Source: Hyphomicrobiales bacterium
Lineage (GTDB): Bacteria > Pseudomonadota > Alphaproteobacteria > Rhizobiales > Rhizobiaceae
DNA length: 64,000 bases
Reading direction: 5' to 3'
Assembly: GCA_900468805.1 (NCBI GenBank)
Contig: UEIF01000007.1
Location: forward strand, 1-64,000
Shown here: positions 10,043-33,672 of the stretch, one piece after another
How the letters are laid out: the number at the start of each line of letters is the position of its first letter
Numbering within the stretch: the first letter of the stretch is position 1
The notes under the pieces: model-generated
Database searches by the model: none
Told to the model about the DNA's origin: nothing
The model's input: only the letters and a program-made list of their open reading frames with translations
Made by a program: the position numbers and the translations under genes

Positions 10043-10699
10043 ATGACAATCGAAAATACCGAAACGCACAGAACCACCGCCCGCAGGCCGCGTCCGAAAG
10101 GCCGGCGGCTTTCCTCCATCCTTCGACAGATGGCGGCGGATCGAAGCCGCGAACGCGTGTCGATCGGCGACCTGTTCCAGACAATGGGTGATAGGGCGAT
10201 CGGCGCACTGATGCTGATCTTCGCATTGCCGAATGCCTTTCCGACACCGCCCGGCACCTCCTCGCTGCTTGGCGCACCGCTGATTTTCCTTGCCGCCCAA
10301 CTCACCTTCGGCCTGAAGCCGTGGCTGCCGAAGGCGATTGCGGCGCGCTCCATGCGGCGGGAGGATTTCGAGACGATCGTCGGGCGCATTCATCCCTGGC
10401 TTGCCCGGGCGGAGCGTATGCTGCAGCCACGTCTGAGCATTTTTGTCGAGCCGCCGGCGGAATATCTGGCGGGCTTCTGCTGTCTGGTGCTGGCGATCGT
10501 TCTCGTGCTGCCGGTGCCGCTCGGCAACATCCTGCCGGCGATTGCGATTTCCCTCTTCGCCTTTGCCATTCTCGGCCGGGACGGGCTGTTTTCGCTCCTC
10601 GGCTTCATCATGACGGGCGTCTCGCTCATCGTTGCTGCCGGGGTGATCTACGGTCTCGTCAAGGCAGCCATCTACATCGTCATGCAGTGGTTCGGATGA
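10043..10699 (+). CDS. ExoD-like exopolysaccharide synthesis protein
   Basis: The product has 218 residues with the ExoD family pattern: a cytoplasmic N-terminus rich in Arg, a GDLFQTMGDRAIGALMLIFA segment, and a C-terminal half with about four hydrophobic helices. ExoD was first found as a Rhizobium gene affecting exopolysaccharide, alkaline tolerance and nodule invasion; its biochemical role is not established. The frame is open from 9950, but residues before MTIENTETHR look non-coding in character and would make the protein unusually long. I therefore start at ATG 10043, although no strong ribosome site precedes it. The gene appears to be monocistronic. Confidence 0.8.
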   Translation: MTIENTETHRTTARRPRPKGRRLSSILRQMAADRSRERVSIGDLFQTMGDRAIGALMLIFALPNAFPTPPGTSSLLGAPLIFLAAQLTFGLKPWLPKAIAARSMRREDFETIVGRIHPWLARAERMLQPRLSIFVEPPAEYLAGFCCLVLAIVLVLPVPLGNILPAIAISLFAFAILGRDGLFSLLGFIMTGVSLIVAAGVIYGLVKAAIYIVMQWFG

Positions 10700-27674: not shown

Positions 27675-28343
27675 GTGGCTGACGAGGATGACGGAAATTC
27701 GCTGATCTCGCTTGGCTACAAGCATGCAAGCTTCATTCTTGCGGTGCTCGGCGGTTTCATCGTCTTTCTGCTGCTGACGTCGCGAGAGGTCAGCGCCAGC
27801 AATATCCTGTTCGGCTGGAACGCTTCAGCGATCATTTTCATCGGACTTAGCTGGCGAAAAATGCTGCGGGCCACCGTCGAGAGCATCCGCAAAAGATCTG
27901 CGGATCTCGATTTTTCCGACACGTTCCTGCTTTTCCTGTCGATTGCGGCGGCTCTTGCAAGCATTGCCGGGATTGGGATCGAGCTTCATTCGATCAAGGA
28001 TGCGCCCGCCAATATCGCGCTCTGGCGCGCGGCTGCGGCAATCCTGACCATCATGATCTCCTGGTTTTTCCTGCACACGCTCTTCACGATTCATTATGCC
28101 CACTATTTTTATGGCGGACCGGACAAGGGTGACGGGCTAAAATTCCCTGACGGCATAGAGGAGCCCGCCTATTGGGACTTCCTCTATTTCTCCTTCACGA
28201 TCGGCGTGGCGGCGCAGACGGCCGATGTTGCTGTAACCTCGACGTCAATGCGCAAGCTCACCCTGCTGCATGCGCTTCTGTCCTTCCTGTTCAACACCAC
28301 CATTCTGGCACTTGCGATCAATGTCGGGGCAAGCCTGCTTTAA
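27675..28343 (+). CDS. DUF1345 membrane protein
   Basis: The product has 222 residues with about five hydrophobic helices (about residues 18-36, 46-60, 80-100, 115-137, 195-220). It carries the DUF1345 family segment FPDGIEEPAYWDFLYFSFTIGVAAQTADVAV, which follows a loop rich in Tyr and His. Function is unknown. The start is GTG 27675, preceded by GGGAGGA. Its TAA stop interlocks with the stop of the convergent anti-sigma gene: both stops lie within TTAA at 28340-28343. Confidence 0.83.
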   Translation: MADEDDGNSLISLGYKHASFILAVLGGFIVFLLLTSREVSASNILFGWNASAIIFIGLSWRKMLRATVESIRKRSADLDFSDTFLLFLSIAAALASIAGIGIELHSIKDAPANIALWRAAAAILTIMISWFFLHTLFTIHYAHYFYGGPDKGDGLKFPDGIEEPAYWDFLYFSFTIGVAAQTADVAVTSTSMRKLTLLHALLSFLFNTTILALAINVGASLL

Positions 28344-29140
28344 AGCCTTGCCGCAGAACGGAAGAAGCTCTCGAACTCGGCGAGATCGCCTGAAGCGACA
28401 TCCGAGATCGCCCAGAACATCAGTCCGCCATCCGACCATTGCGCCATGTTGTAGCCGTCATGCTCGGTCGTCGTCCGGGCCCCGGAAGCCGCAGGCCAGA
28501 TGAACAGGTTGATGATGTGGCCGTGGCGCCTATAGACGAGGGCGGCGACAGTGCGGCCACCGATATAATCGACGCGCCCGCCGACCAGCGGGAAGCCGTC
28601 CTTGGCGAGATCGCTGACAGGCGGCGAAAAGTCGATCTTGCCGTTGAACCAAGGCTTTACCGTATGTTGATCCGAGGTCAGGACGTCGGTCAGATGATCA
28701 GCCATCATGGAGCGGACATGACTTGCCATGATCTCATCCTGCAGAAGCAGGGTCTGCGACGGTGCGTTGACGAACAGGAAGCCGCTCGCCGTCAACACCG
28801 CCAGAGATGGCACGAAGCTCCAATGCCGGATGAAGTCCAAGGTACGGCGCCAGAGAGGCGGCTGGTGTTGCGGCGGCAGGCCGGAAGTTGTCGCGGCCTG
28901 TTCGAAGGACAGCATGGACAGCACTTGCGAACGCAGGGCCTCAGGCGGTTTCCACCGCACGCCATCCTGATCAACAATCTTCCTCACTGCACCGACCCTT
29001 TCTATCTCCGCCCGGCAGTTTTCGCAGGTTCCGAGATGATCCTCGAACTGTGCTGCGTGGACGGAATCAAGTTCGCCATCAATAAAAGCGTGCAGCATGA
29101 TGTGCCATTCGGGGCAACCTTTCGATTGGGTTTCGCTCAT
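28340..29140 (-). CDS. Zinc-containing anti-sigma factor (ZAS type), membrane-anchored
   Basis: The product has 266 residues. The N-terminal anti-sigma domain has the zinc motif His35-X3-Cys39-X2-Cys42 (HLGTCENC). A single membrane helix follows at about residues 106-125, then a C-terminal domain of about 140 residues outside the cytoplasm. It should hold the sigma factor encoded directly upstream inactive until a signal is received. The genes overlap by 4 bases (ATGA at 29137-29140), the usual sign of a sigma/anti-sigma pair made in fixed ratio. The signal is unknown; the Cys/His zinc site makes redox stress plausible. Confidence 0.87.
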   Translation of the reverse strand: MSETQSKGCPEWHIMLHAFIDGELDSVHAAQFEDHLGTCENCRAEIERVGAVRKIVDQDGVRWKPPEALRSQVLSMLSFEQAATTSGLPPQHQPPLWRRTLDFIRHWSFVPSLAVLTASGFLFVNAPSQTLLLQDEIMASHVRSMMADHLTDVLTSDQHTVKPWFNGKIDFSPPVSDLAKDGFPLVGGRVDYIGGRTVAALVYRRHGHIINLFIWPAASGARTTTEHDGYNMAQWSDGGLMFWAISDVASGDLAEFESFFRSAARL

Positions 29141-29886
29141 CCTGCCGTCTCGCTCTTGTTGCCTGCATCCCAGGTGTCGGCAAATTCGCGCCGGGCTCTC
29201 GCAAGGCGCGACATCACGGTGCCGATCGGCGCGTCGATGATGTCAGCGATCTGCCGGTAGGAGAGATCTTCGAGCTCGCGCAGAACAAGAATCTCCCGCA
29301 TCGTTTCCGGAAGCCTGCTGATGACGGCGCGCACACGCTGCTGTTCGCTGCGCCGGATCATCGCCGTCTCGGGAGAATCCTCTTCAGATGCGATCTGATA
29401 GCCTTCATCCTCGTCGGGATCGGTGCTGCCGTTATCGTCCAGATGGCGCTCGAAACGTGCCTTGCGGCGATCCTGCTGGCGCCAGACGTGGCAGCAGTTC
29501 CTGACGATAGCAAAAAGCCAGGAACGCGGATCGCCGCCGCGATAGGTTTCGAAATTGCGATAGGCGCGCAGGAATGCTTCCTGGACGATATCCCTGGAGG
29601 CTTCGGCGTCACGGCTGAGGAAGCGGGCAAAATTATAGGCCGCATCCAGGTGCGGAACCATCACATGCTGAAAGCGCTGCATGAATTCATGCTGCGCGGC
29701 CTTGTCGGCCGTCGAAGCGACCCGTTCGCTGACGGATTTCTCCGAGACCATGAGGTGGAACAGCCGCGCGGCGCCGGCGAAAAGCGTCGCCAGCGCCGAT
29801 ATTCGAATGCGCGCCCGCGGCACTTGCCTGACGAGCAGCATCCAGTCGTTCGATCCGACGGGATAGGTGATCTGAACGTTTGTCAT
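29137..29886 (-). CDS. ECF-family RNA polymerase sigma factor
   Basis: The sigma region 2 segment is DIVQEAFLRAYRNFETYRGGD, then SWLFAIVRNCC. The sigma region 4 segment is LPETMREILVLRELEDLSYR, then QIADIIDAPIGTVMSRLARA. Between them is an acidic linker of about 50 residues. The start is uncertain. I give ATG 29886 (249 residues) because GGGAGG lies just upstream and the predicted promoter at 29954-29982 would put it in a 60-base leader. ATG 29751 (204 residues) would be closer to usual ECF length but has no ribosome site. It overlaps the anti-sigma gene by 4 bases, and the matching divergent promoter suggests it drives itself and the hydrolase operon. Confidence 0.86.
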   Translation of the reverse strand: MTNVQITYPVGSNDWMLLVRQVPRARIRISALATLFAGAARLFHLMVSEKSVSERVASTADKAAQHEFMQRFQHVMVPHLDAAYNFARFLSRDAEASRDIVQEAFLRAYRNFETYRGGDPRSWLFAIVRNCCHVWRQQDRRKARFERHLDDNGSTDPDEDEGYQIASEEDSPETAMIRRSEQQRVRAVISRLPETMREILVLRELEDLSYRQIADIIDAPIGTVMSRLARARREFADTWDAGNKSETAG

Positions 29887-29953: not shown

Positions 29954-29982
29954 CTAGACCGCTCGTCGCGCGATTTTATTCC
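29954..29982 (-). promoter_or_regulatory. Predicted ECF-type promoter of the sigma/anti-sigma operon
   Basis: On the minus strand GGAATAA (29982-29976) is followed after exactly 17 bases by TCTAG (29958-29954). The identical pair with the same spacing faces the opposite way at 30083-30111. The resemblance to ECF -35 elements (GGAAC/GGAAT) supports autoregulation. Confidence 0.65.
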
Positions 29983-30082
29983 AGATAATGCCGATTTATT
30001 TGCAAGCAGCCGGGGCGAAAGACGCATTTCGAGAAAATAAGCACACATTTCCAATGGTTTGTCGAAAATCGTATTCGAGCTG

Positions 30083-30111
30083 GGAATAACAGCGCGCTGT
30101 CGGCGATCTAG
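30083..30111 (+). promoter_or_regulatory. Predicted ECF-type promoter of the metallo-hydrolase operon
   Basis: GGAATAA (30083-30089), exactly 17 bases, TCTAG (30107-30111), about 75 bases before the hydrolase start. The spacer contains the 12-bp palindrome ACAGCGCGCTGT (30089-30100), which could bind a second regulator. Confidence 0.65.
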
Positions 30112-30185: not shown

Positions 30186-31160
30186 ATGTTCACCATGTCA
30201 CGTCGCGCCGTGCTGGGATCGGCTGCTGCTGCGGCTGCATTCGGCCTGTCATCGAAGCTCGAATTCGTAATGCCGGCATTTGCCGCGACACCGCTGGAGC
30301 CGACGGTTGGCTTCTACAAATACAAGGTCGGCGATATCGAGGTGACGGCGATCTATGACGGCATCTGGAAGAAGCCGCATGATCCAACCTTCATCAAGAA
30401 CGCCTCGATCGAGGACACCAAGGAAGCGCTTTCCAAGGCGGGGCTTACGACCGAATTCATGCCGATCCCGCTGACGGTGGTCGTCCTGAAGGTCGGCAAT
30501 CGCCTGATCATGATGGATGCCGGTTCCGGTGTCGGTCAGTGGCAGGAGAATGCCACGCACCTGCCGGCGAATATGGCAGCGGCCGGTATCGACTACACGA
30601 AGATCGATACGGTCATGATCTCGCATTTCCATCCGGACCATGTCTGGGGGCTGATGGAAAAGGGAACGAACAATCCTGTCTTCCCGAATGCCGAACTCAT
30701 CGTCAACGCCGTCGAATATAACTGGTGGACGGAGCCCGGCCGTGTCGAGAAGCTTGCAGAGGGGCGCAAGCCGGCCGGCAAGCGCATCGCCGCCGTCTTC
30801 CCGAAATGGAAGAATTGGAAGCTGGTGGATGACGGAGCCGAGGTTGCACCGGGCATAAGGTTGCTTTCATCACCAGGCCATACACCCGGCCATTCAACCT
30901 ACCTCGTCACCTCGGGCAACAAGCAACTGCTCATCTCCGCCGATATCATGTACGTGCCGGCGCTGCTCGCCCCGCATCCCGAATGGCAGGGCAGCTATGA
31001 CCAGGATGGGCCGACGGCCATCGACACGCGCCGCCGCCTCATCGATCGCGTGATCGCCGACAATATCGCGATCTGCGGCTCGCATTTCCCATTTCCCGGC
31101 TCGGGCACCTTCGTCAAGGACGGAAGCGCCTATGCATTCACTCCCACAAACCAGGCCTGA
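30186..31160 (+). CDS. Tat-exported metallo-beta-lactamase-fold hydrolase
   Basis: The product has 324 residues. The N-terminus is a twin-arginine signal (MSRRAVLGSAAAAAAFG) ending near AFAATPLEP, so the protein probably folds with its metals in the cytoplasm and is exported to the periplasm. The metal-binding motif is HFHPDH, His147 to His152. Further ligands are likely at GHTPGHS, ISADI and CGSHF. Related proteins include lactonases and other hydrolases; the substrate cannot be read from sequence. The ATG at 30186 is preceded by AGAGGAGG. A TPR gene and a DoxX gene follow in the same direction. Confidence 0.87.
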   Translation: MFTMSRRAVLGSAAAAAAFGLSSKLEFVMPAFAATPLEPTVGFYKYKVGDIEVTAIYDGIWKKPHDPTFIKNASIEDTKEALSKAGLTTEFMPIPLTVVVLKVGNRLIMMDAGSGVGQWQENATHLPANMAAAGIDYTKIDTVMISHFHPDHVWGLMEKGTNNPVFPNAELIVNAVEYNWWTEPGRVEKLAEGRKPAGKRIAAVFPKWKNWKLVDDGAEVAPGIRLLSSPGHTPGHSTYLVTSGNKQLLISADIMYVPALLAPHPEWQGSYDQDGPTAIDTRRRLIDRVIADNIAICGSHFPFPGSGTFVKDGSAYAFTPTNQA

Positions 31161-31180: not shown

Positions 31181-31645
31181 ATGATGAAATATGCCATTCT
31201 CGGATTTATCTGGTTCTGCGCCATTTCCGCCGGTGTTTCCGCGGTCACCGCATTTCCAGCCTTCGCCGTCGACAACATGGAGTCGATTGACGCACCCGAC
31301 CTCACGTCGGTGCGCGCCAAGATCGACGCCAAGGACTATGCCGGTGCGCTCGCGGAGCTTCGCGATCTTGCCGAAGATAATCAGCAGGCAGATGTTTATA
31401 ATCTGATGGGTTTCACCCTGCGCAAGACCGGCGATTACCGGATGTCGCTGACCTATTATACCAAGGCGCTGGAGCTTCAGCCCGATCATAAGGCGGCACG
31501 TGAATATCTCGGCGAACTCTATGTCGAGACCGGCGACGTGGCGAAGGCCGAGGAGCAGGTATCCGTGCTCAAGCAGCTTTGCCCTGCAGGCTGCGAGGAG
31601 CTTAAAGACCTGCAGACAGCGATTGCTGCGAAGGGCAGCAACTGA
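31181..31645 (+). CDS. Exported tetratricopeptide-repeat protein
   Basis: The product has 154 residues. A Sec signal peptide covers about residues 1-30 (MMKYAILGFIWFCAISAGVS, then ending AFA). The rest contains two or three TPR units: GALAELRDLAEDNQQADVYN, then MGFTLRKTGDYRMSLTYYTK, then EYLGELYVETGDVAKAEEQV. It is a likely periplasmic protein-binding scaffold. It lies 20 bases after the hydrolase gene with AGGAGC before the ATG, so it is in the same operon. Two Cys near the C-terminus (LCPAGCEEL) could form a disulfide. Its partner is unknown; the exported hydrolase is the obvious candidate. Confidence 0.8.
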   Translation: MMKYAILGFIWFCAISAGVSAVTAFPAFAVDNMESIDAPDLTSVRAKIDAKDYAGALAELRDLAEDNQQADVYNLMGFTLRKTGDYRMSLTYYTKALELQPDHKAAREYLGELYVETGDVAKAEEQVSVLKQLCPAGCEELKDLQTAIAAKGSN

Positions 31646-31707: not shown

Positions 31708-32151
31708 ATGGAAAACGCTGCAGGCTGGTCTCGGCTGGCCGATCTCATTCTTCTTCTGGGGAGGCTTCTGCTATCCCTGATTTTCCTGCATGAGGGATCG
31801 TCACTCGCGACAGATATGACCGCAACGCTCGCTACATTTGCTGAGCTCGGCCTGCCTCCAGTGGTGACATTTGGCGTCATCGCCCTGCAGATCGGCGCCG
31901 GCCTTTCCATTGCTGCCGGTTTGCTCACCCGGCTCGGCGCGGCGGCGCTGGGGCTGTTCTGCCTTGCGACGGCCTTTCTGTTTCACACCAACTTCGCCAG
32001 CCAGAACGAGCTGCTGCATTTCGAGAAGGATCTGGCAATCGCTGGCGGCATGTTCGTCCTGGCGGTCTCCGGTGCGGGATGGCTGTCGATCGACAATCTG
32101 GTGAAACGGCAGGCGAAAGGGTTGCATTCCTGGCTTAGAGCGGTGCTCTAG
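31708..32151 (+). CDS. DoxX-family membrane protein
   Basis: The product has 147 residues with four membrane helices typical of DoxX (LADLILLLGRLLLSLIFLHE, then VTFGVIALQIGAGLSIAAG, RLGAAALGLFCLATAFLFH, AIAGGMFVLAVSGAGWLSID). DoxX proteins occur with oxidative stress and thiosulfate or sulfide oxidation systems, and often near ECF sigma factors. It is probably the third gene of the hydrolase operon, 62 bases after the TPR gene, with AAGAGGAG before the ATG. A function in quinone-linked redox control is known only for some relatives. Confidence 0.83.
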   Translation: MENAAGWSRLADLILLLGRLLLSLIFLHEGSSLATDMTATLATFAELGLPPVVTFGVIALQIGAGLSIAAGLLTRLGAAALGLFCLATAFLFHTNFASQNELLHFEKDLAIAGGMFVLAVSGAGWLSIDNLVKRQAKGLHSWLRAVL

Positions 32152-32565: not shown

Positions 32566-33672
32566 CTAGATTTTCAAGCTTGAGAGCAGCGAGATGAGCT
32601 GGGACTGGCGTTGCGTGCCAGTTTTGGCGAGAACCTTTTTCACGTAGCCGCGCGTCGTCTCATAGGTCAGTCCGGATATTTCGGCGATCTGGCGCGGCGA
32701 CGAACCTTCCATGAGCAGTCGGGCGACCGTCGTTTCCTGAGGGGTAAGTGCGAACAGCTGTCGCAGCAGATCTCGGCTTGGGCTGGCGCGCTCGGAAAGA
32801 TCCGTGATGATGGCGACGGCGGCGGAATGCGAGAAGAGCTCGGCCGGCACTCCGTTCAGCCGTTGGGCGCGGATCACCAGCGGCGCCTTTCCCGAACGCG
32901 AAAACAGGACGGGTGTGGAAACCACCGGATTGGCGAAAGACTCTTTCGAAAGAACCGCCTGCAGGTGGCGGCGCAGGAGCCCGGTTTCTTCCTGGCTGAT
33001 GGCAACGAGTTCCCGATCCAGAATACGGATGTTTCCGTCGATCAGTTTCTCCGCCTGCTTGTTCAGTCGGGTAATGCGCCCGGCCCGGTCGAAGAAGATG
33101 ACCGCGGTGCCGGTCAGCTCGAAGGCCTCGCTCATGCTATCGATCTTGGCGACATCGAGAGCGCGGATGATTTCGGCGGCGGCGGTCAGTCTCGACTGCA
33201 TTTTTATGAGCAATCGCTCGTCGTCTCGATCGAAAGGCTGGTCTTCAATCCGGCGCTGCAGATTGAGGCTCAGCATCGCATCGCCCGCGGTGAAGCCCAC
33301 CATGGCGGAATAGCGAAAGCCGAAGCGGGCCAGGAATTCCGTATAGAAGCTGTGGTGCTTGAATTCTTCCTCGCTGGCGATGTCGTGTTCGATAATGACG
33401 CCCTTGGTCATCGCAACCGCAAGGCCACGCTCACGAAAATCGCGTTTGTACCATTCTTCGGAAAAATAGACCTGGAAGGCGTCCAGCAAATTCGGCGTGC
33501 TCAGGAAGCCGAAGGGGAATTTCCCTCGGACCGGCATGATATGCGTTCCTACCGAACCAGTGGCCTGACTGATCTGCTCCAGAGTGCGCTCCCAGCTCGC
33601 AGGCACCAGTGCGGATTCCAGCAATCCGTCCAGGGCTGCTTCGAGCTCGGAGATATCGATGCGCGTCGCCAT
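32566..33672 (-). CDS. LuxR-family transcriptional regulator with PAS-like sensor region
   Basis: The product has 368 residues. The C-terminal LuxR/FixJ helix-turn-helix is at about residues 305-362 (FALTPQETTVARLLMEGSSP, then SGLTYETTRGYVKKVLAKTG). The region at about 170-290 resembles a PAS domain (FELTGTAVIFFDRAGRITRL). The first 165 residues are a further sensor-like domain with no motif I recognise. There is no receiver Asp phosphorylation site and no autoinducer-binding signature, so it is a stand-alone regulator of unknown signal. It follows the putrescine-type operon on the same strand but is separated from it by a terminator-like palindrome. Confidence 0.82.
   Translation of the reverse strand: MATRIDISELEAALDGLLESALVPASWERTLEQISQATGSVGTHIMPVRGKFPFGFLSTPNLLDAFQVYFSEEWYKRDFRERGLAVAMTKGVIIEHDIASEEEFKHHSFYTEFLARFGFRYSAMVGFTAGDAMLSLNLQRRIEDQPFDRDDERLLIKMQSRLTAAAEIIRALDVAKIDSMSEAFELTGTAVIFFDRAGRITRLNKQAEKLIDGNIRILDRELVAISQEETGLLRRHLQAVLSKESFANPVVSTPVLFSRSGKAPLVIRAQRLNGVPAELFSHSAAVAIITDLSERASPSRDLLRQLFALTPQETTVARLLMEGSSPRQIAEISGLTYETTRGYVKKVLAKTGTQRQSQLISLLSSLKI

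Follow-up and report, generated by a model that had tools for sequence, protein, structure and literature searches.

Conserved matching promoters predict an autoregulated ECF sigma circuit with an exported metallo-hydrolase, TPR and DoxX operon in Rhizobium and Mesorhizobium

Does an ECF sigma factor control the operon that stands back to back with its own gene? The question is raised by a locus in the window, that is, the whole stretch of 64,000 nucleotides analysed here (contig UEIF01000007.1 of a Hyphomicrobiales bacterium). The sigma gene on the minus strand and a hydrolase gene on the plus strand are divergent, and both promoter sites lie in the gap between them. The features of the locus are the following.

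28340..29140, minus strand: membrane zinc anti-sigma factor, 266 aa, zf-HC2 (Pfam)
29137..29886, minus strand: ECF sigma factor, 249 aa, sigma-70 regions 2 and 4 (Pfam Sigma70_r2 and r4_2 above cut-off)
29954..29982, minus strand: predicted promoter of the sigma/anti-sigma operon, 0 mismatches, kept in relatives
30083..30111, plus strand: predicted promoter of the hydrolase operon, 0 mismatches, kept in relatives
30186..31160, plus strand: metallo-beta-lactamase-fold (MBL) hydrolase, 324 aa (Lactamase_B)
31181..31645, plus strand: small TPR protein, 154 aa, signal-like N-terminus by eye (TPR families)
31708..32151, plus strand: DoxX family membrane protein, 147 aa (Pfam DoxX above cut-off)

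The sigma and anti-sigma genes overlap by 4 bases. The hydrolase gene is separated from the TPR gene by 20 bases, and the TPR gene from the DoxX gene by 62 bases. Ahead of region 2, the sigma factor is extended at its N-terminus by about 60 residues, which is unusual (window 29753-29886, minus strand). Near relatives align to the sigma factor from residue 1, and many distant ones align only from residue 18-64. Therefore, an internal ATG at residue 46 may be the true start. A LuxR-type regulator gene is found downstream (window 32566-33672, minus strand). Since only five of the 80 named relatives (L084-L087, L093) have such a gene in the stretch that was fetched, it probably stands outside the module.

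The first-pass annotation had described the motif GGAATAA-N17-TCTAG twice in the gap, once on each strand and facing outward, with differing spacers and no other copy upstream of a gene in the window. All of this was confirmed. Both sites match with 0 mismatches, their spacers differ, and the window has no further perfect copy. The sigma promoter has its -35 GGAATAA at 29976-29982 and its -10 region CGGTCT at 29956-29961 with 14 bases between, and 69 bases separate its TCT from the sigma ATG. The hydrolase promoter has GGAATAA at 30083-30089 and CGATCT at 30104-30109, and its TCT is 76 bases from the hydrolase ATG. No match to GGAATAA-N17-TCTAG appeared in 100 dinucleotide shuffles of the window. 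Across the genome of 7,620,275 bases, these two sites are the only perfect matches and five more have one mismatch. When up to two mismatches were allowed, the whole genome gave 152 matches against 445 for the backwards pattern, which is no enrichment; therefore, only the exact form of the motif is informative genome-wide. The core as refined from relatives (GGAATAA-N14-CG[A/G]TCT, see below) occurs with up to two mismatches elsewhere in the window at 10459 and 13707 only.

A looser pattern, GGAATAA-N16-[A/G]TCT, gave five matches in the same genome against four for its backwards control. Beyond the pair, one is located before an RpoE1-like operon, one over the start of a gene recognised by eye as lon, and one antisense within a response-regulator gene. 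A larger regulon in this genome was considered and rejected because the looser pattern is hardly commoner than its control. The RpoE1-like operon lies outside the window, on contig C47 of the same genome (G000, C47:14424; L180, L273), and consists of a Lipoprotein_15 gene, whose product is a secreted-repeat lipoprotein, followed by an RpoE1-like ECF gene. It bears its own GGAATAA-N16-GTCT site and looks like the SMc01418-rpoE1 operon of S. meliloti. Its ECF factor could cross-talk with the window circuit. Since the genome itself holds an ECF operon with a matching promoter, another sigma factor could read the window sites.

Conservation was analysed in 148 Rhizobium-genus genomes (thresholds E <=1e-30 for the sigma factor and E <=1e-90 for the hydrolase). 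A sigma match was obtained in 83 of them; two genomes with matches only 43-44% identical (G274 and G281) were counted as being without the sigma factor. From the 83 genomes, 85 loci were inspected, and 82 loci (81 genomes) had an adjacent hydrolase gene. The other three, sigma paralogs of 38-42% with no hydrolase, were left out of the promoter alignment. Sigma factor and hydrolase were found together in 80 genomes, hydrolase alone in one (G259, an 82% complete draft), sigma factor alone in one (G186, where tblastn still gives a hydrolase match) and neither in 66. The Fisher p value for this co-occurrence is 4e-40, a statistic that ignores relatedness.

At all of the 82 loci, both sites were within one mismatch of GGAATAA-N16-[A/G]TCT, and the match was perfect at 77 on the hydrolase side and at 73 on the sigma side. 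A column-wise view gives GGAATAA-N14-CG[A/G]TCT as the constant core. Its CG is kept at 91-100% in both sites and its TCT at 99-100%, and the trailing AG is kept at 46/55% in the hydrolase promoter and at 83/85% in the sigma promoter. The motif of the first-pass annotation thus stands in its GGAATAA, its spacing and its TCT, but the final AG is poorly kept and the core ends in CG[A/G]TCT. There are 67 and 66 different spacers at the two sites. Mean column identity for the two sites is 91% and 94% in the boxes, 65% and 63% in the spacers, and 68% and 52% in the flanks. The figure for the flank on the hydrolase side is higher because several bases directly behind the -10 box are well conserved. 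Among 1640 shuffled gaps of 170 bases, 4 contained the motif with one mismatch and none contained it with zero mismatches. A plainer pattern (GGAAT, 17-19 bases, [A/G]TCT) detected both sites at 72 of the 82 loci, the hydrolase side only at 4, the sigma side only at 1 and neither at 5; the ten loci that fail it hold one-mismatch forms such as AGAATAA.

The refined core was searched in 20 sigma-bearing genomes, namely the source genome and the next 19 by sigma score with G181 left out. It was found at 44 places, and 40 of them are the pair in the sigma-hydrolase gap. Exactly two copies, both in the gap, occur in 17 of the 20 genomes. The extra copies are spread over G265 (one), G266 (one) and G294 (two). 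With the backwards control, a single match was obtained over all 20 genomes. A chance origin of the pair is ruled out by this control together with the window and gap shuffles. The extra site of G265 (L352, 1501-1960) precedes a short ORF in which, by eye, pieces of the hydrolase N-terminus and of the TPR C-terminus are joined; this would be a second operon copy that has decayed but retained its promoter. Apparently split sigma genes (L282 on a plasmid of R. grahamii BG7; L188 in G186) and an interrupted hydrolase gene (L079 in G256) were also seen, suggesting decay of the circuit in some lineages.

In addition to the genus sample, 80 named hydrolase loci from Rhizobium, Phyllobacterium, Labrys, Mesorhizobium and other Rhizobiales were compared. 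Forty have a window-type sigma gene in divergent orientation, two have a different ECF gene upstream, and at 38 no sigma gene was present within the fetched stretch. Both sites are within one mismatch at all 40 loci with a divergent sigma gene (perfect at 36 on the hydrolase side and 37 on the sigma side). The form CGAATAA...CAATCT occurs on the hydrolase side in two Phyllobacterium loci and in one other Rhizobiales locus. The scan of relatives for the motif before the same gene pair, which had been suggested as a check, therefore shows conservation at 82/82 genus loci and 40/40 named loci.

The arrangement is different in Mesorhizobium. On plasmid pMc1192 of M. ciceri, the genes are annotated in the order sigma, anti-sigma, DUF680, DUF680, MBL, TPR and DoxX. 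This cluster has the same hydrolase (78%), TPR protein, DoxX protein and promoter motif as the window. However, its ECF protein is another one (36% core identity), the genes are co-directional, and the small DUF680 proteins are additional. With this sigma factor as query, 146 Mesorhizobium genomes were searched. The sigma factor was found in 99 and the hydrolase in 84; both were present in 83, hydrolase only in 1 (G1026, 79% complete), sigma factor only in 16 and neither in 46. Judged by coordinates, just 6 of the 83 have the sigma and hydrolase genes on one contig and no more than 3 kb apart; in the others, the distance is large or the contigs differ.

The first 20 unlinked Mesorhizobium genomes in the list were taken as a sample. 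The strict motif was found 296-451 bases upstream of the sigma gene in 19 of them. The hydrolase operon had GGAATAA-N16-[A/G]TCT within 1.6 kb in 20/20, and within 700 bases in 11/20. All 38 named Mesorhizobium-type operons also have the motif within 1.6 kb, in a set that overlaps the 20 in species. The opposite-strand control (0/40) and shuffles (0/2000) yielded no match in stretches of 700 bases, not 1.6 kb. In contrast, 16 of the 99 sigma-bearing genomes are without the hydrolase operon (L323-L338), and the motif was absent from the 900 bases before their sigma genes even with one mismatch (0/16). The sole exception among the 20 is G931, where the operon has the motif and the sigma gene does not. 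The motif thus tracks the operon in trans. When presence or absence of the motif was placed on the sigma tree, six changes were needed, at least two of them by well-supported branches; therefore, it does not reflect one event, but the independent events are few. The sigma factors of Rhizobium and Mesorhizobium share 36-39% core identity, so the two genera do not have one close common regulator. Shared ancestry alone was rejected as the origin of the pair, since the spacers differ and the motif accompanies the operon to other sites and to another sigma lineage. One or two small exported-looking DUF680-type genes stand between promoter and hydrolase gene at 19 of the 20 Mesorhizobium loci (L303-L322), and such genes lie likewise upstream of the hydrolase gene in L186 (6638-7170). 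Because of this position, they probably belong to the same regulon there.

The presence of the motif at 20/20 operons and 19/20 sigma genes, and at 0/16 sigma genes without the operon, strongly supports an autoregulated circuit. It is highly probable that the ECF sigma factor drives both its own operon and the MBL-TPR-DoxX operon through the two matching promoters. The earlier proposal that an ECF sigma factor and its zinc anti-sigma factor are linked by matching promoters to an exported MBL hydrolase, an exported TPR protein and a DoxX protein is therefore supported by the comparison in the genus, at the named loci and in Mesorhizobium.

To which class does the sigma factor belong? Its best NCBIfam family is PRK12533 (NF009185), with 201.5 bits and thus under the cut-off of 248. 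In building the sigma tree, 7 of 32 rows were dropped, namely six own paralogs (some mis-extracted) and the split R. grahamii gene. A branch of 18 rows with support 99/97 contains the window sigma factor and its other-family, Mesorhizobium and Burkholderiales homologs. It excludes the RpoE1-like, RpoE4-like and RpoE6 references, whose own joining has no clear support and whose core identity to the window sigma factor is 27-33%. As reported in the excerpt of PMC6180224, several mapped target promoters of S. meliloti RpoE1 and RpoE4 have GGAATA and GTC in common, at a similar spacing. GGAATAA together with CG[A/G]TCT agrees with this ECF26 form (-35 GGAATA, -10 GT(C)): the GT is exact in the sigma promoter, the hydrolase promoter has AT, and the CG register is one base off. 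The promoter therefore resembles the ECF26 consensus, and the sigma protein, which does not group with the RpoE1/4/6-type references, is a candidate member of ECF26. ECF33 was considered and rejected because a figure legend in PMC3420878 gives alphaproteobacterial class 33 sigma genes without associated anti-sigma genes.

A search of 397 genomes at the order level (sigma E <=1e-40) gave 13 sigma homologs outside the genus with 45-56% identity. No MBL hydrolase gene was found within the fetched stretch at those 13 loci. At nine of them (L243, L247-L253, L255), a calcineurin-type metallophosphoesterase with an RR-type signal adjoins; the signal was judged by eye, and the phosphoesterase was recognised by Pfam in four loci and by similarity in the rest. 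These operons are alike the window in the sigma branch, a similar anti-sigma factor and a GGAATA-type site, GGAAT-N18-NTCT preceding the phosphoesterase in 9/9 and GGAATAA in seven. They differ in that the phosphoesterase, with a cupredoxin in 8/9, replaces MBL and TPR, and in that the sigma gene is not divergent, sigma and anti-sigma being last in the same operon. In L247, a second, divergent site faces a small gene and then a DoxX-like gene. The site stands before the sigma gene in L244-L246, and none was found in L254, which is at a contig end.

These loci bear on whether the boxes are ECF elements at all. Two such halves could in principle form an operator, and the boxes would then be an ordinary transcription factor site or parts of a sigma-70 promoter. 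This is very improbable. A directional GGAATA with CG/TC 14-16 bases on, placed 69 and 76 bases upstream of the ATGs, is the layout of mapped ECF promoters, and the motif precedes ECF genes or operons in Rhizobium, in Mesorhizobium and at the nine other-family loci with a different hydrolase. A second question is which ECF factor reads the promoters. Both could be read mainly by another one of the same preference, for example an RpoE1-like factor, and the local sigma factor would then be a target and not the driver. The C47 operon with its matching site is in line with this. Moreover, the excerpt of PMC6180224 reports that RpoE1 and RpoE4 of S. meliloti cross-activate their regulons and that RpoE6 activates RpoE4 targets, and in that of PMC10880074 a foreign ECF26 promoter was activated by RpoE1, RpoE4 and RpoE6. 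However, the sigma factor and the hydrolase occur together in 80/148 and 83/146 genomes with few exceptions, and the sigma genes are without the motif where the operon is absent. By eye, the CG of CG[A/G]TCT is also shifted upstream by one base relative to the rpoE4 promoter of S. meliloti. We therefore consider control by another ECF factor unlikely and prefer the local sigma factor as the driver.

The anti-sigma factor has an Hx3Cx2C zinc motif (H35, C39, C42) that is invariant in 32/32 aligned relatives, all with zf-HC2. Its N-terminal anti-sigma domain is similar to those of RsrA and RsiW, and it is followed by one likely membrane helix, judged from the sequence and not by a topology program, and a well-kept periplasmic C-terminal domain. 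This is the layout of ECF26 anti-sigma factors, as described for EcfR1/4/6 of S. meliloti in the excerpts of PMC6180224 and PMC3511301. The structural model has a mean pLDDT of 65.7 and a pTM of 0.49, with block means of 75-93 for residues 171-266. Six of the best seven VIA-align matches are RseB/MucB structures, mostly C-terminal domains (Z 8.6-9.1, 92-96 residues, 3.0-3.4 A), and the unrelated 1vr8 reached Z 9.0. The eighth match is RsiW on the N-terminal domain with Z 6.7. Foldseek placed RseB/MucB in ten of the first eleven places, none at E 0.001. The models are suggestive only of an RsiW-like anchor and an RseB-like sensor combined in one chain.

On the output side, the hydrolase combines a twin-arginine-type signal (R6R7) with a full HxHxDH...H...D...H metal site. 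The RR and the metal ligand residues are invariant in 20/20 aligned hydrolases. Its nearest solved relatives are 7y7u, 4le6 organophosphorus hydrolase, 1p9e methyl parathion hydrolase and 4zo2 acylhomoserine lactonase, and a reconstructed lactonase ancestor is also among them. The dinuclear ligands (HxHxDH, H, D, H) and a similarity that spans most of the protein place it with MPH/OPHC2/AidC-like MBL proteins. The model has a mean pLDDT of 63.5, which is too low for fold comparison. The closest curated family is the AidB-type N-acyl homoserine lactonase (NF047979), with 161.2 bits. The module might therefore act on acyl-homoserine or similar lactones, in quorum quenching or detoxification of plant compounds, and not on stress damage. 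The lactonase and methyl parathion hydrolase relatives and the lactonase ancestor point the same way, and this substrate is possible, if somewhat doubtful. The AidB score is well under the family cut-off of 360, and related loci have a metallophosphoesterase beside the sigma gene instead. To our knowledge, quorum-quenching genes do not typically have DoxX and TPR partners or envelope-type sigma control, which also counts against lactones.

A role of the output in periplasmic detoxification or repair is plausible in view of the relatives of the hydrolase, the C-terminal CPxGC of the TPR protein (invariant in 20/20 aligned), the link of DoxX proteins to sulfur metabolism (PMC3511200, excerpt) and the response of S. 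meliloti RpoE1 and RpoE4 to sulfite compounds (PMC6180224, excerpt). The function so assigned would rest on distant homology.

The open-access literature search returned no description of the MBL-TPR-DoxX module or of the sigma sub-branch. However, the claim that the system as such is undescribed could not be upheld, since its kind is familiar. In the excerpt of PMC8315932, the bcrS-abcS sigma/anti-sigma operon of Brucella (ECF16) activates itself and the adjacent bcrXQP operon from highly similar promoters and has a protective output outside the cytoplasm, as would the window circuit. It differs in the promoter (TGTAAC/GCGAAT) and in the output, a methionine-rich peptide and a methionine sulfoxide reductase. 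The sigma-F system of Caulobacter (DUF692/DUF2063/DoxX) is also alike, as its ECF sigma factor controls a small DoxX operon. It has instead a GTAACC-N16-CGAA promoter and a six-helix cysteine anti-sigma factor, and the available part of its account (PMC3511200) has no MBL hydrolase. There is a likeness in promoter with the S. meliloti ECF26 factors RpoE1, RpoE4 and RpoE6 with EcfR1/4/6, which share the -35 GGAATA, the -10 GTC and the spacing (PMC6180224, excerpt). RpoE1 activates its own operon, and the regulons of RpoE1 and RpoE4 are small, as is predicted for the window circuit. The targets named in the excerpts are sulfite oxidase, azurin, a lipoprotein and a protease, and not MBL-TPR-DoxX (PMC6180224, PMC3511301). 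As far as the excerpts describe them (PMC6180224, PMC3511301, PMC6527743), ECF26-type circuits have the same promoter code and anti-sigma layout, and also the autoregulation and the small regulon that are predicted for the window circuit.

From these comparisons, we infer that the sigma factor reads the two promoters, and likewise the direction of regulation, the signal and the chemistry of the output. The proposed mechanism is as follows. At rest, the membrane-anchored zinc anti-sigma factor would hold the sigma factor. An extracytoplasmic signal, read by the periplasmic domain of the anti-sigma factor, would free it, and the freed sigma factor would guide RNA polymerase to the two back-to-back GGAATAA-N14-CG[A/G]TCT promoters. 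One promoter would raise sigma and anti-sigma factor, a positive feedback with its own brake. The other would yield the twin-arginine-exported hydrolase, the exported TPR protein and the DoxX membrane protein, which most likely would remove or repair a harmful agent in the periplasm. A wider proposal is speculative and, in our estimate, unlikely to hold as a whole. A portable periplasmic defence cassette (exported metallo-hydrolase, DoxX and helpers) may have been captured independently by ECF lineages that share one promoter code: MBL-TPR-DoxX under one lineage in Rhizobium and under another in Mesorhizobium, and elsewhere phosphoesterase-cupredoxin, which in one locus is joined by DoxX. The anti-sigma factor would carry its RseB-like sensor in one chain, and the hydrolase might destroy the inducing lactone or electrophile and so close the loop.

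The biology of rhizobial ECF factors gains a clean and very small predicted regulon, with two promoters per genome in 17 of the 20 searched. Orthologs of the hydrolase are present in 81/148 Rhizobium-genus and 84/146 Mesorhizobium genomes. Mesorhizobium offers a natural experiment on how the wiring of an ECF regulon persists through relocation of its genes and replacement of the sigma lineage. The finding also points to an unstudied exported hydrolase-TPR-DoxX module, and its inducer could reveal the substrate.
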